This document shows positions 42,260 to 64,000 of a stretch of DNA of 64,000 nucleotides, in pieces. The translations under genes and the position numbers were made by a program. The notes under the pieces are model-generated. The model did not search any database. It saw only the letters and a program-made list of their open reading frames with translations, and had not been told where the DNA came from. How positions within the stretch are numbered: the first letter of the stretch is position 1; every line of letters starts with the position of its first letter. Origin of the DNA: Halomonas sp. 'Soap Lake #6' (GTDB lineage: Bacteria; Pseudomonadota; Gammaproteobacteria; Pseudomonadales; Halomonadaceae); the NCBI RefSeq assembly GCF_003031405.1, contig NZ_CP020469.1:2914001-2978000 (forward strand), read 5' to 3'.

Positions 42260-42274
42260 TGTTATATTATTACA
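42260..42274. promoter_or_regulatory. Predicted Zur operator
   Basis: TGTTATATTATTACA differs at one position from the Zur core TGTTATANTATAACA known from gammaproteobacteria. It lies 32 bases upstream of the start codon of the COG0523 gene, in AT-rich promoter-like DNA. Zinc-dependent repression of that gene is the natural reading. Confidence 0.75.
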
Positions 42275-42306
42275 TAACATAAAACCCATTTAGAGGTGAC
42301 CTAGCA

Positions 42307-43533
42307 ATGACCGTGTTTACTCCCCTACCCGTGACCGTGCTCTCGGGTTTTCTTGGTGCCGGTAAAACCACCGTGCTCAATCATATTCTTGCCAACCGTG
42401 AAGGTCGCCGTGTAGCCGTGATCGTCAACGATATGAGCGAGGTGAATATAGACGGTGCGCTGGTGCGCGGCGGACCTGGCGAGTCTACGCTGGATGGCGA
42501 GGTGGCACTGAACCGATCCGAAGAGCGCTTGGTAGAGATGAGCAATGGCTGCATCTGCTGCACTTTGCGCGAAGACTTACTGGAAGAAGTTAGCCAATTG
42601 GCCCGAGAAGGCAGGTTCGATTACCTGGTCATTGAGTCCACCGGGATTTCCGAGCCGCTGCCCGTAGCGGAAACCTTTACCTTTGAAGATGAAAGTGGCC
42701 AAAGCCTTTCCCATGTTGCTCGGCTAGATACGCTGGTCACTGTTGTTGATGGCGCCAACTTTCTTACCCAGTATCGCGAAGCACAAAGCCTTGCCGAGGC
42801 AGGCGAGAGTTTAGGTGAGGAAGACGAACGCAATGTCGCCGACCTGCTGGTCGATCAGATTGAGTTTTGCGATGTACTGCTAATCAGTAAAACCGACCTG
42901 ATCAGCAAACAAGAGCTGGAAGCCTTAAAAGCTATTCTGCGCTCGCTTAACCCCGATGCGGAGCTGGTGCCGATCACCCAAGGCGGCGTGCCACTTGAGA
43001 AAGTGCTGGATACCGGCAAGTTCAACTTTGAGCGCGCCCAGCAAGCGCCCGGCTGGCTCAAAGAGATGCGCGGGGAACATGTTCCAGAAACCGAAGAGTA
43101 TGGTATTGGCAGCTTCGCCTACCATGCCCGCCGCCCCTTCCACCCGCAGAAATTTTACGACCTGCTCAATGTTGAGTGGTTTGGTAAAGGCCTGTTACGC
43201 TCAAAAGGCTTCTTCTGGCTAGCCACTCGTCCACGATATGCGGGTCAGTGGAGCCAAGCGGGGGGCATTGCTCACCACGGCCCAGCCGGTGTGTTCTGGA
43301 AAGCTATCCCTGAAGCCAACTGGCCCAACGACCCTGAGTATCGCCAGTTTATTCTGGAAAAGTGGCAAGAGCCGTTTGGTGATATGCGCCAAGAGCTGGT
43401 ATTTATTGGCCAGAACCTAGATCAAGCTAAGATGCGCGAGGCATTGGATGCTTGTCTATTAAGCGAAGCCGAGCTACTAGAAGGCATGGAGGCGTGGAAA
43501 AAACTGCCTGATCCTTTCCCTGCCTGGGAGTAG
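42307..43533 (+). CDS. COG0523 (CobW/ZigA-type) metal-chaperone GTPase
   Basis: G3E-family GTPase of the COG0523 group, whose zinc-starvation members deliver zinc to client enzymes. The 408-aa protein has the P-loop [10 protein letters not shown] (about residues 12-21), Walker B-like ESTGISEP (about 110-117) and the signature metal site GCICC (Cys82, Cys84, Cys85). [11 protein letters not shown] is followed by a C-terminal CobW_C domain with [10 protein letters not shown] Zur-like operator 32 bases upstream supports the zinc branch (ZigA/ZagA/YciC) over the cobalamin (CobW) or nitrile hydratase branches. AGAGGTGA serves as ribosome site. Confidence 0.92.
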
Positions 43534-59489: not shown

Positions 59490-59516
59490 AAGCGCTGATC
59501 TTTTCAGCGCTTTTTT
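59490..59516 (+). terminator. Rho-independent terminator after the CstA-family gene
   Basis: Stem AAGCGCTGA (59490-59498) with TCAGCGCTT (59504-59512), loop TCTTT and a following run of T. It sits 5 bases after the first hairpin, giving a double stop. Confidence 0.85.
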
Positions 59517-59632: not shown

Positions 59633-59686
59633 GCCTGCTTTTCCACACCTATAGTTAGGCATCAATATTGCCGACCAGCCTTCAAA

Positions 59687-59701
59687 CGTTATATCATAAC
59701 G
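59687..59701. promoter_or_regulatory. Zur-like palindrome before the second ABC operon
   Basis: CGTTATATCATAACG consists of CGTTAT and ATAACG around three bases. It matches 11 of 14 defined positions of the Zur core TGTTATANTATAACA, with both outer bases changed symmetrically (C/G for T/A) and one inner change. It ends 26 bases before the first ATG of the operon. Confidence 0.55.
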
Positions 59702-59727
59702 ATTATTAATCACTTAGTGACCCAGAG

Positions 59728-60567
59728 ATGTTGTCAATGTGCAGCAATCCAGTGTTATCTGTGCGTGACCTGCACATTCAAATTGGCCGTCAGCAGGTCG
59801 TCGATGGGCTCTCCTTCGATGTCATGCCCGGTGAGCGTGTCTGCCTTTTAGGAGCATCAGGCTCGGGTAAATCGTTCACAGCCAAGGCGGTGCTGGGGCT
59901 TTTACCACCTAATGCCAAGGCGTCAGGTAGCGTTCGTATTCAAGGCCAAGAATCCCTGGCGATACCCGCCGCGCGGCGGCGTGCTGATACCCGCGTCTCA
60001 ATGGTATTCCAAGACTCGCTTTCAGCGCTCAATCCTTTGGTTACCATTGGCTCCCAGTTACGTGAGCCTTTTTCACGCCACCATGGCCTGTCGCGCAAAG
60101 CCGCAACGCATGCGGCTGTGGCGCTGTTAGCAGCCATGGGCTTACCAGATCCACAGCAGTTAATAAAGCGCACTCCCGCTGAGCTTTCAGGTGGCCAGCG
60201 CCAACGGGTCTGTATTGCCCTGGCCATGGCATGCAAAACATCTTTAATGGTCGCCGATGAACCTACCACCGCTCTGGATGTAGTCACTCAGGCCCAGGTA
60301 CTGGGAGCATTGCGCGAACATACCGGCAACTCGGGTACCGCCATGCTGTTTATAACCCACGACCTTCACGCTGCCTCCCAGCTATGCCAACGGGCGGTGA
60401 TTATTGAGCGTGGCATCATGATCGAAAGCGGTGACTTAGATACGCTGATCACCGCTCCTCAGCATCCCTTTACCCAGGAGCTGGTCGCCGCCGCCCATAG
60501 CGTACATCCCTCTGAGCTAAATGCTTCTGCCGCCCTTGCATCCATCGACTATCGAAAGAGCGCCTAG
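59728..60567 (+). CDS. Nickel/peptide-type ABC transporter ATP-binding protein (NikD-like)
   Basis: ATPase of a second importer. The 279-aa protein has Walker A GASGSGKS (about residues 44-51), Q-loop FQDSLSALNPL (about 93-103), signature LSGGQRQRVC (about 154-163), Walker [13 protein letters not shown] (about 174-185) and the switch ITHDLHAA. It lacks the Cys-containing C-terminal extension of peptide transporters and is NikD-sized. Two starts are possible, ATG 59728 or ATG 59737, neither with a strong ribosome site. A Zur-like palindrome ends 26 bases upstream of 59728. The stop codon (TAG) is immediately followed by the ATG of the next gene. Confidence 0.88.
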   Translation: MLSMCSNPVLSVRDLHIQIGRQQVVDGLSFDVMPGERVCLLGASGSGKSFTAKAVLGLLPPNAKASGSVRIQGQESLAIPAARRRADTRVSMVFQDSLSALNPLVTIGSQLREPFSRHHGLSRKAATHAAVALLAAMGLPDPQQLIKRTPAELSGGQRQRVCIALAMACKTSLMVADEPTTALDVVTQAQVLGALREHTGNSGTAMLFITHDLHAASQLCQRAVIIERGIMIESGDLDTLITAPQHPFTQELVAAAHSVHPSELNASAALASIDYRKSA

Positions 60568-61425
60568 ATGCAAAGCCCAATACTGTCCGATGCTGGAGAA
60601 GCGTTTCTCTCGGCGCGCGGGTTGAACAAGAGTGTCTCCCTACCCCGCGAGGTATTTTGGCGGGCGGGTGAGCGTAAGCGGGTCATGAACAATATCGACC
60701 TGACGCTTTATCCTGGCGAGCGAGTGGGGCTCGTGGGGCTATCCGGCTCGGGTAAAACCACGCTACTGCGCTCTCTATTGGCGATTGAAGCGCCGGACTC
60801 AGGGACAATTACCTGCCAGCAAAGAGACGTACGCCCTGCCTCCACGGCCAAGCTCAGATGGTACCGCCAGGCGGTTCAGTATATCCCCCAAGACCCTGTC
60901 TCATCCCTTGACCCACGGATGAACGTTCGCGCCCTGGTGGCAGAGCCGCTTATTCGGTTGCACGTCGACTGCGCCCCTGAAGAGCGCGCCCGGGAAGCAC
61001 TGGAGCAGGTTGGATTGGATGCGCAGTTTTTAGATCGCCATCCCCATGAACTTTCCGGTGGCCAGGCCCAGCGAGTCGCCATTGCCCGCGCGATTGCTAC
61101 CCGCCCACGCTTTTTATTGGCCGATGAACCGCTTAGCGGCCTTGATCTACCGGTCCGCGCTCAGGTTATCAGCGTACTCAAGCAGCTTTGCGATGAAAGC
61201 GGTACCGGGCTACTGATGGTGTCCCACGATTTATCGGTGGTCGCCAAACTCTGCCAACGTACGTTAGTGATGGATGACGGCAACATTGTGGAAGACCAAC
61301 CAACGGCCTCGTTATGGCGCAATCCCCACCACCCAATAACGCTTGCGTTAATTAACGCGGTCACACAATTGCCCACATGTGCTCTTCCCAGCTGCAATGC
61401 AGCGGAGGTTGAAGCGCTTTTATAA
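60568..61425 (+). CDS. Nickel/peptide-type ABC transporter ATP-binding protein (NikE-like)
   Basis: Second ATPase of the same importer. The 285-aa protein begins with a short extension, then RVMNNIDLTLYPGERVGLVG, Walker A GLSGSGKTT (about residues 56-64), Q-loop IPQDPVSSLDPRM (about 108-120), signature LSGGQAQRVAIARAI (about 163-177), Walker B FLLADEPLSGLD (about 182-193) and the switch VSHDLSVV. Like its partner it has no Cys-rich peptide-type tail; a single CALPSCN occurs near the end. It follows directly, with zero spacing, and is co-translated. Confidence 0.88.
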   Translation: MQSPILSDAGEAFLSARGLNKSVSLPREVFWRAGERKRVMNNIDLTLYPGERVGLVGLSGSGKTTLLRSLLAIEAPDSGTITCQQRDVRPASTAKLRWYRQAVQYIPQDPVSSLDPRMNVRALVAEPLIRLHVDCAPEERAREALEQVGLDAQFLDRHPHELSGGQAQRVAIARAIATRPRFLLADEPLSGLDLPVRAQVISVLKQLCDESGTGLLMVSHDLSVVAKLCQRTLVMDDGNIVEDQPTASLWRNPHHPITLALINAVTQLPTCALPSCNAAEVEALL

Positions 61426-61560: not shown

Positions 61561-63075
61561 ATGTTTCGCCGCCCGCTTCGTCTTTCGCTACCCGTTGCCC
61601 TTGCCACGCCGCTACTACTTGCCGGTTGTTTTGATCAGCAGCGCGACACCACCTCCACCGAATCAGGTGAACGTATTAGCGTGGCAATGCTGCAGCCACC
61701 GCGCTCCGGATTAACACCGCTTTCCGACGATGCCTTTAAACTGTCCCGCTGGAGCATGGCGGAAACGCTGATTCGCCTGGATGCCAACAGCGATCCTCAG
61801 CCCTTTCTAGCCACCGAGTGGGAACAGCTGGATGCCAATACATGGCGCTTTGTGATCCGCGACGGTGTGACGTTTCATGATGGCAGCGAGCTAACTGCCC
61901 AAGACGTGGTGAACGCCCTCACGGCAGCTACTCAGGCGGCTCCGAAACCTAGAATTTTAGACGGCGTGAACATGACCATCGAAGCCGATGGTGATAATGC
62001 GGTGCTGGTACATACGGAAAGTGCTGACCCGCTGATTCCCAATCGTCTTTCAAGCCCGCAATTAGCGATTCTTGCTGCCAGCGCCTACGGCGAAGATGGC
62101 CGCATTAATCCTATCGAAGCTGGCACCGGCCCCTTTGTGCTGAAAGAGATCAACGGCACCACCAGCGCCAAGCTTGACCGCTATGACGACTACTGGGGCG
62201 AGCCTGCCGCAGTGGCCGGCATTGATGCCGACTATGTACCCGATGGCACCGCCCGAGCGGCAGCCTTGAGAACCGGCGCGGCCGATGTGGTAGAGGCTAT
62301 TCCAGTCTCTCAAGTTGCCCTACTCGATCCTGAGTTAGTCCATGAAGTGCCTATGCCACGCACTAACACGCTGTACCTGAATACCGAATCAGGCCCCATG
62401 ACCGACCCCGGCCTGCGCGCCGCGGCTCGTGAGGCGGTTGATCGCGCCACTATCGTCAATACCGTTTACGAAGGCCGCGCAGATATTGCTGAAGGGCTAC
62501 TTGGCCCAGCGCTGGCCTGGGCAAGCGATTACCGCACGCCGCTTGAGGAGCGTACCGAACCTACCGAGCCAAACGGTGCGGAGATTACCCTAGCGACCTT
62601 TACTGACCGCGCGGAACTTCCTGAAGTCGCCGTGCTGCTTGAACAGCAACTCACCCGCGCAGGTTTTACCGTTAACCAAGAAGTGCGTGAATACGCCCAT
62701 ATTGAAGCGGACGCTTTATCGGGCCAGTTTGACGCCTTTATTCTCTCCCGTGCCACGGTCCTTGATTCAGGCGATCCCGTTGCCTATATGTTTAGCGACT
62801 TCGCATGCGCAGGCTCCTTCAATATCGCCCAGCTATGTGACCCTGCCGTTGATGAAGCGCTGACCAACGCCGCCGCCCAGCCCACGGGAGATGCTCGCCG
62901 CCAGGCAATTATCGATGCCGAAGCGGCTATTTTACGCACCGATGCAGCGATTCCCATGCTCCATGAGCGCGTAATCCAAGGCGAGTCAGCGCGGGTTTCC
63001 AACGCCGAGCGTGACCCGCGCGAGCGCGTGTTGATTACTGAAAAAACCGCTATCAACGCCGATAGTGAGTCTTAA
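61561..63075 (+). CDS. Nickel/peptide-type ABC transporter substrate-binding lipoprotein
   Basis: Family 5 solute receptor anchored as a lipoprotein: lipobox LAGC with Cys23, then a Ser/Thr linker. The 504-aa protein has ATEWEQLDANTWRFVIRDGV (about residues 81-100), FHDGSELTAQDVVNAL (about 102-117), GTGPFVLKEI (about 186-195) and PGLRAAAREAVDRATIVNTV near 282-301. GAGGAG precedes ATG 61561. The mature protein is strongly acidic. Ligand candidates are a peptide, a metal or a metal-metallophore complex. The upstream Zur-like site and NikD/E-sized ATPases favour a metal-related ligand; this is inference. Confidence 0.88.
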   Translation: MFRRPLRLSLPVALATPLLLAGCFDQQRDTTSTESGERISVAMLQPPRSGLTPLSDDAFKLSRWSMAETLIRLDANSDPQPFLATEWEQLDANTWRFVIRDGVTFHDGSELTAQDVVNALTAATQAAPKPRILDGVNMTIEADGDNAVLVHTESADPLIPNRLSSPQLAILAASAYGEDGRINPIEAGTGPFVLKEINGTTSAKLDRYDDYWGEPAAVAGIDADYVPDGTARAAALRTGAADVVEAIPVSQVALLDPELVHEVPMPRTNTLYLNTESGPMTDPGLRAAAREAVDRATIVNTVYEGRADIAEGLLGPALAWASDYRTPLEERTEPTEPNGAEITLATFTDRAELPEVAVLLEQQLTRAGFTVNQEVREYAHIEADALSGQFDAFILSRATVLDSGDPVAYMFSDFACAGSFNIAQLCDPAVDEALTNAAAQPTGDARRQAIIDAEAAILRTDAAIPMLHERVIQGESARVSNAERDPRERVLITEKTAINADSES

Positions 63076-63088
63076 AGGTATTCTGCGC

Positions 63089-64000
63089 ATGACAACCGCA
63101 ACACCGCTGCGCCTTTGGCGCAGCTTGCGCATAGAGCCTTTTATTCCACTGCTCTCTCGCCTGGTAACGCTAGCCAGCGTGATCGTACTGGTCGGACTGC
63201 TGCCATGGCTATCCGGCCGGGACCCAGCGCTGAGCATTTTGCGGGCGCGCTCCGCCGAGCAGGAAGCCACCCCCGAGGTGCTGGCCGCCATTCGAGCCCA
63301 GCTTGGCCTGGATCTTGGCCCGTTTGAGAAGCTACAAAGCTGGCTGATGGGGCTACTGCAGGGCGATGCAGGCAACTCCTGGATTTCCGGTGCGCCAGTG
63401 CTACCGGGCATGCTAAAAAGCGCCCAAGTATCCCTAACGCTCATGTCATTCGGTATGCTGGTGGCAGTAATTACCGCTACGCTGATTTGCGTACCAGTGG
63501 TGCGTCGGGGCTTGAATGGACAGGTTAGCCGTTCATCCGGCGCCATTGGCGCCGCGCTGACAGCACTGCCCGAGTTTCTGCTTGCCTCAGTACTGCTAGT
63601 GATATTTGCCGCCTGGCTAAACTGGTTACCACCTTACGGTTGGCGCGGTCTCAGCTATGTGGTGCTACCCGCCTTTGCCCTAGGCCTCCCGGCGGGCGGC
63701 CTATTGGGCCGCTTATTCAGCGACGGGCTTTCGGCCACTTTTACCGAACGCTGGGTGGCCACCTGGAACGTGGCAGGTTTTTCTCGCACCCGGATTACCC
63801 TGGCAGCCCTACGCCGTACCCTGCCAAGCTTGATGCCTCAGGTCGGCATGGTAATGGTAGGCCTTACGGGTGGTGCTATTGCCGTCGAGCAGGTATTTTC
63901 GATTCCCGGCCTTGGCCGGGCAACTCTGGGTGCAGCATCGGCCCAGGATATGCCCGCCCTGCAAACCGGCATTCTTATTCTGCTGATTATTGCCATTGTG
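63089..64000 (+). CDS. Nickel/peptide-type ABC transporter permease (3' end outside window)
   Basis: The frame is open from ATG 63089 to the last base (304 codons, no stop), so the gene continues past the window. The visible protein is NikB/DppB-like: an N-terminal helix (SRLVTLASVIVLVGLLPWLS), RAQLGLDLGPFEKLQSWLMG (about residues 71-90), four further hydrophobic helices and GGAIAVEQVFSIPGLGRATL (about 264-283), the conserved region after the coupling loop. The EAA loop (WVATWNVAGFSRTRITLAAL, about 222-241) is more divergent than in the first system. A second permease gene is expected downstream. Confidence 0.88.
   Translation, partial: MTTATPLRLWRSLRIEPFIPLLSRLVTLASVIVLVGLLPWLSGRDPALSILRARSAEQEATPEVLAAIRAQLGLDLGPFEKLQSWLMGLLQGDAGNSWISGAPVLPGMLKSAQVSLTLMSFGMLVAVITATLICVPVVRRGLNGQVSRSSGAIGAALTALPEFLLASVLLVIFAAWLNWLPPYGWRGLSYVVLPAFALGLPAGGLLGRLFSDGLSATFTERWVATWNVAGFSRTRITLAALRRTLPSLMPQVGMVMVGLTGGAIAVEQVFSIPGLGRATLGAASAQDMPALQTGILILLIIAIV

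Follow-up and report, generated by a model that had tools for sequence, protein, structure and literature searches.

Probable Zur control of a fused-permease ABC importer operon in Halomonas sp. 'Soap Lake #6', a candidate system for uptake of chelated zinc

Near the right end of a 64,000 nucleotide stretch of the Halomonas sp. 'Soap Lake #6' genome (contig NZ_CP020469.1, positions 2,914,001 to 2,978,000; hereafter the window, whose own numbering we use) lies an operon for an ATP-binding cassette (ABC) importer of the nickel and peptide transporter type, preceded by a palindrome that resembles the operators of the zinc repressor Zur. What does this system import, and is it zinc that governs its expression? 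A preliminary description of the locus had proposed Zur control and uptake of zinc, perhaps as a complex, in zinc-starved cells. From the computational analysis reported here we think it likely that the operon belongs to the Zur regulon and imports a chelated metal, most likely zinc, when zinc is scarce. Within this reading Zur-type regulation is well supported by the sequence comparisons, and transport of a chelated metal is a plausible proposal.

The operator, CGTTATATCATAACG with the core GTTATNNNATAAC, occupies positions 59687–59701 and ends 26 bases before the ATG of the first gene at 59728, exactly as originally described. It overlaps the predicted −10 element (59692–59697) of a promoter-like sequence, TTGCCG-18-TATCAT, at 59668–59697 on the forward strand, although this promoter is a consensus match only, of which 0.4 are expected in shuffled sequences. 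A second Zur-like site had been reported before a COG0523 gene, and we find it there as an exact TGTTATATTATTACATAACA at 42260–42279, 27 bp 5' of the gene for ZigA, a zinc metallochaperone GTPase of the COG0523 group (42307–43533, forward strand; NCBIfam NF038288, 694.9 bits against a cut-off of 600) that presumably belongs to the same regulon. At one mismatch or fewer this longer site has a single match in the window against 0.07 expected. For the core, the window alone holds 18 matches at two mismatches where 16.3 are expected, which is no more than chance. A longer pattern, TGTTATNNNNNNNNATAACA, was also tried over the whole genome at two mismatches, but with 200 matches against 102 for its control it was too loose to be used; the resulting list lacks the exact match at 42260–42279, and nothing was drawn from it.

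The positions of the core across the genome are more telling. In the single contig of 4,803,686 bases that was scanned, the exact core occurs seven times, compared with 2.3–2.5 copies expected from models trained on the window (Poisson P = 0.010 for an expectation of 2.35). When up to one mismatch is allowed the core is rarer than a reversed control pattern (81 versus 126), so that only the exact sites are informative, and the strong evidence consists of the positions of these seven sites together with their conservation. Four of the other six stand before Zur-type genes, namely hisI2 with cysS2 (opposite a divergent dehydrogenase gene of the adhC type), rpmE2, the dksA2-yciC-folE2 cluster (divergent from a DUF1826 gene) and a znuCBA/aztABC-like operon, and the remaining two precede FecB-FecCD operons with cobalamin riboswitch leaders. 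Paralogues of such kinds are named as Zur-regulon genes in a published account (PMC2770081). The hisI2, cysS2, yciC (COG0523), znuC-like ATPase, zigA and Zur assignments come from comparison with NCBIfam and those of the ZnuA-like genes from Pfam, whereas rpmE2, dksA2, folE2, DUF1826, znuB, adhC and the FecBCD genes were identified by eye from their translations. The genome has two genes of the FUR family, one of which is Fur as judged by eye; the best NCBIfam family of the second is Zur (NF008646), at 152.9 bits and thus under the equivalog cut-off of 167. Two further ZnuA-like genes (L181 and L182) have no good site inside the loci that were fetched for them.

The two FecB-FecCD operons have an arrangement of their own, in which the Zur-like palindrome is followed by a cobalamin riboswitch (L021 2425–2688, near genome position 2104424, RF00174 at 100.5 bits; L023 2528–2829, near 3769027, 96.2 bits). 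This order of elements suggests joint control by zinc and B12 of two paralogous FecB-FecCD uptake systems. In the second of the operons there are also, by eye, genes for an ATPase and for a cupredoxin-like protein (L147).

Lack of conservation of the palindrome in related genomes was among the findings that, by the preliminary description, would refute the proposal, and the comparison did not refute it. Relatives of the second ATPase are found in 44 of 250 genomes of the family, and we examined 30 of these 44 loci, 23 from the genus of our own genome, which is counted among them, and seven from other genera at 56–59% identity. Upstream of ATPase 1 the core is exact in 29 of the 30 orthologous operons and has one mismatch in the last (L030); its position is −40 to −51 in all but L049, where it is at −79. 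In a gap-free alignment of the 23 same-genus promoters from the start codon, the 13 columns of the core agree in 0.83–0.91 of sequences, compared with 0.26–0.70 for columns −160 to −71, and columns −65 to −62 are also conserved. In the other genera the arms of the core are kept and the centre differs (GTTATGATATAAC or GTTATGTTATAAC), as is expected for a palindrome bound by a protein. Taken with the sharing of the site among the zinc-starvation genes of the genome, this gives strong support to the Zur control proposed at the outset.

The association extends well beyond the family. A search of named genomes that used 26 aligned fused permeases (the operon's last gene, described below) yielded 322 relatives, and the best 80 of these 322 form the basis of the locus counts for the wider family, in which groups were assigned from record titles, the start of ATPase 1 was estimated by tblastn and the core was sought from −150 to +60. 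At one mismatch or fewer the core is present in 67 of 72 proteobacterial loci, with random windows of the same loci giving 0–1%; by group, there are 30 of 31 Halomonadaceae-type loci, 29 of 29 from Enterobacterales, both of those from Marinomonas and 6 of 10 from Alphaproteobacteria (10 of 10 at two mismatches). Exact cores account for 29 Halomonadaceae-type, seven Enterobacterales, one Marinomonas and one alphaproteobacterial locus. None of six actinobacterial loci has the core at one mismatch or fewer, and in two further ones ATPase 1 was not found; the palindromes before the actinobacterial operons have nothing in common except GTATTGATAGCATCAATAC, in a comparison that included no proper test of the actinobacterial Zur consensus. 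This GTATTGATAGCATCAATAC is a perfect palindrome at the ATPase 1 start of two Arthrobacter loci (L134 and L145), and is possibly the site of another regulator. The sole Halomonadaceae-type locus that lacks a core match even at two mismatches, that of Halomonas dongshanensis (L113), carries an alphaproteobacterial-type copy of the system as judged from the tree described below.

The operon itself is as the preliminary description had it, two ATPases, a lipoprotein receptor and a permease, all on the forward strand, with the refinement that the permease proves to be fused. ATPase 1 is NikD-like and has 279 residues (59728–60567; TIGR02770, 214 bits), and ATPase 2, NikE-like with 285 residues (60568–61425; NF007739, 226.7 bits), begins right behind its stop codon. 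NikD and NikE are the closest NCBIfam families, and the label NikDE-sized was apt. As had been noted from the translations, both ATPases are short and without the Cys-rich tail: Pfam finds no oligo_HPY domain (PF08352), the mark of Opp/Dpp peptide importers, in either; the two ATPases of the window's first ABC system do have it. The third gene (61561–63075) encodes a solute-binding protein (SBP) of 504 residues with the SBP_bac_5 fold (PF00496) and, by eye, the lipobox LLLAGC. The permease is a single open reading frame that starts at 63089, leaves the window at 64000 and continues to the window equivalent of 64852, with 587 residues from the ATG at 63089 or 595 from a GTG at 63065; its N-terminal half matches NikB-type and its C-terminal half NikC-type profiles in NCBIfam. 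A terminator-like hairpin, a consensus match on the forward strand at 59490–59512, separates the operon from the preceding gene, and because the genes next to its 3' end are convergent we take the operon to end at the permease.

The preliminary description had looked to the right of the operon for metallophore synthesis or TonB receptor genes. Neither appears within about 26 kb, judged by eye from open reading frames of at least 90 codons; this inspection did not include a search for families of the nicotianamine synthase type. What does follow, again by eye, is a convergent stretch with a porin, pseudoazurin, FecBCDE-type ABC genes and bacterioferritin (L018 7015–12506, window equivalent 65015–70506), in which no good Zur site was found, the best having two mismatches.

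How does this system relate to those already known? The short NikD/E-type ATPases, the NikB- and NikC-like permease halves and the SBP, whose top VIA-align match is the NikA (Opp5A) of Staphylococcus aureus, all recall NikABCDE, which differs in that here the permease halves are fused and the operator is of the Zur type. Moreover all subunits score under the nickel-family cut-offs (NikD 214 against 318.7 bits, NikE 226.7 against 354, Opp5A_NikA 200.4 against 600, NikB 139 against 447 and NikC 126.9 against 358.45). The staphylopine (opine metallophore) importer CntABCDF is likewise a cluster-C importer with short ATPases and a tie to zinc starvation, although here no synthesis gene recurs nearby, and all tested subunits fall under the Cnt cut-offs (CntA 56.3 against 800 bits, CntD 194.7 against 380, CntF 197.5 against 385); the receptor itself falls short of the cut-offs for all three of Nik, Cnt and Opp. 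The opine dehydrogenase family PF10100 was found neither in our own genome (0 of 1) nor in nine others with the system (0 of 9), a weak negative since no control genome gave a signal. With ZnuABC and AztABCD the operon has in common a Zur-type operator and the tie to zinc starvation, and it differs from them in its SBP, which belongs to PF00496 and not to PF01297.

The nearest published parallel is in Paracoccus denitrificans (PMC5387054). A Zur motif is placed there before pden1341, within the zinc-induced Ni/dipeptide ABC operon pden1338-1344, the promoters were taken into electrophoretic mobility shift assays, and the authors conclude that Zur acts on them directly, without assigning a substrate. 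That system (Pden1341-1344) is also a cluster-C importer and is zinc-responsive, with its Zur motif shortly 5' of the SBP gene. It appears to consist of an SBP, two separate permeases and a fused double ATPase, where the present system has two ATPases and one fused permease; we assign that architecture to the P. denitrificans operon on account of the published gene list and not of its sequence. Of 61 sampled genomes from the Paracoccus genus group, at least two (L094 and L097) carry true orthologues of the SBP studied here (71 and 74% identity), and the other matches listed are at most 36% identical, bar one short piece at 42%. Among 30 loci of this group that were examined, three have a Zur-like site (two mismatches or fewer to the published ones) by the SBP gene. 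In all three the SBP gene is accompanied by two separate permease genes and by a single gene for a fused double ATPase; their SBPs share 27–30% identity with ours, and one of the loci sits between znuABC and zur, its sites facing also the divergent znuC. From these sites and the reversed architecture it appears that at least two lineages of cluster-C importers have come under Zur, with opposite patterns of fusion. The KEGG quorum-sensing map includes Opp-type genes. Loss of Zur in Pectobacterium odoriferum is described as enriching the terms 'ABC transporters' and 'quorum sensing' among the changed genes (PMC10298282), which fits a response of the operon there without proving it. In the open-access literature, as far as its accessible text extends, no description was found that names the fused-permease system as Zur-regulated.

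These comparisons leave three other explanations to be weighed. The palindrome might be the site of another repressor (Fur or NikR, for instance, or some local regulator), in which case the link to zinc would be a coincidence. AT-rich palindromes are common, the degenerate pattern is at chance in the window and one-mismatch sites are not enriched in the genome, but the exact core is common to Zur-type zinc-starvation genes and is conserved across genera and classes, and the consensus sites of NikR and Fur look different; we therefore regard this explanation as very improbable. If Zur control is granted, the cargo may still be other than zinc. An importer of cobalt or nickel complexes under Zur might refill cambialistic paralogue enzymes in zinc-starved cells, an idea that draws on the nickel importers being the closest named families, on the Ni-histidine binder as top VIA-align match of the SBP, and on a presumed regulon with the alternative enzymes hisI2, cysS2 and folE2 and two FecBCD operons with B12 riboswitches. 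Set against this are the scores of the subunits, all under the Nik cut-offs, and the company the operon keeps: the flanks of 7 of the 80 loci hold a relative of a zinc gene (ZigA, YciC, DksA2, DUF1826, ZnuA or ZnuB), a count made without a background and with matches to ZnuC excluded because any ABC ATPase matches it. On balance we consider a cobalt or nickel importer unlikely.

Hardly different in probability, and so also unlikely, is an importer of peptides or amino acids that under zinc stress would supply His- or Cys-rich peptides or the zinc bound to them. The SBP does have the SBP_bac_5 fold, and in VIA-align it matches AapF, GbpA and DppA almost as well as NikA; ATPase 2 scores nearly as high with the OppF and DppF profiles (206 and 205 bits) as with NikE (227 bits), its closest solved chains being those of peptide importers. 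The oligo_HPY tail, however, is missing from both ATPases, and the SBP is strongly conserved: among 38 sequences, drawn from three classes, mean column identity is 67%, a level that suggests a single fixed ligand and not broad peptide binding.

Returning to the reading that we prefer, import of a chelated metal under Zur, a plausible mechanism is as follows. When zinc is sufficient, zinc-loaded Zur would sit on the palindrome over the −10 box and block transcription, and when zinc is scarce the operon would be expressed. The lipoprotein SBP would then capture a metal in a small chelate, the metal being most likely zinc and its ligands amino-acid-like or scavenged, by analogy with the Ni-histidine complex of S. 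aureus NikA, and the NikBC-fused permease, driven by the two NikDE-type ATPases, would carry the complex into the cytoplasm. The sequence analysis itself shows the site, its presence before zinc-starvation genes, its conservation, the anatomy of the operon and the fold; we infer that Zur binds, that the metal is zinc and what kind of ligand holds it. Because the core precedes other zinc-starvation genes and co-occurs with the importer in many other bacteria, the process is probably a little-described scavenging of zinc bound to small molecules.

The wider family bears on where the ligand might come from and how the system has spread. The gene order ATPase 1, ATPase 2, SBP, fused permease is found by tblastn in 78 of the 80 loci; in the two exceptions (L112 and L127) ATPase 1 was not found, nor was an SBP ahead of the permease. 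A transporter of the major facilitator superfamily (MFS) accompanies the operon in 23 of the 80 loci, lying between ATPase 2 and the SBP in 22 and upstream in L126. Pumps of the MFS and sometimes the EamA type are in or beside the operon in Enterobacterales and Arthrobacter, and in five Rahnella loci an EamA protein lies behind the permease. The MFS transporter recalls the MFS exporters of zincophore clusters described in PMC7438024; the one that was scanned (L100) is MdtH-like, at 136 of 469 bits and so far under the cut-off. No synthesis gene recurs near the operon among clusters present in at least four of the more distant loci. In a tree of 38 SBP sequences the Halomonadaceae are not kept together, Halomonas dongshanensis falling into a four-member set (support 100/99) with two Paracoccaceae and a Kiloniellales metagenome-assembled genome, a grouping that points to horizontal transfer. 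Inspection of the SBP N-termini by eye finds a lipobox cysteine in most gammaproteobacterial and actinobacterial members, and several alphaproteobacterial proteins (L085, L124 and L130) have none and look periplasmic.

The fused permease is also carried by plasmids, with matches (E ≤ 1e-80) on 509 plasmid records: 473 from Klebsiella, 20 from Escherichia, 12 from Rahnella, three from Thioclava and one from Chimaeribacter. In the two plasmid stretches examined, one from Klebsiella (L177 1–11000) and one from E. coli (L178), the operon consists of the ATPases, an MFS transporter, the SBP and the fused permease, and hisI and a Zur-like repressor gene lie less than 4 kb away. This repressor is 30% identical to the Zur of our genome and 23% to its Fur. 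A core with one mismatch is present at −39 of ATPase 1 in both stretches, and the Klebsiella stretch has another between hisI and the repressor gene. Such an assembly is possibly a plasmid-borne zinc-starvation island. The E. coli record is typed IncFIB/IncHI1B, a plasmid type that includes Klebsiella hypervirulence plasmids.

More tentatively, and with doubts that outweigh our confidence in it, we propose that these pieces form a mobile and self-contained zinc-scavenging module built on a simple, non-opine chelator. The MFS or EamA pump would export a small ligand that the cell builds from common metabolites, to be reimported with zinc by the SBP and fused permease; the core of the system with its Zur box would have spread between classes and onto Klebsiella plasmids, on which its own Zur paralogue and an alternative enzyme accompany it, and Halomonas would have kept the importer only, living on the ligands of others.

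If the operon does import chelated zinc under Zur, then several bacterial classes would share a little-described and transferable zinc importer that is now annotated only as a 'peptide/nickel transporter', and cluster-C importers would have come under Zur in at least two lineages with opposite gene fusions. The SBP would be a testable protein in the search for new natural ligands of zinc, and the system would be a lead to a zinc-starvation island carried by widespread Klebsiella plasmids.
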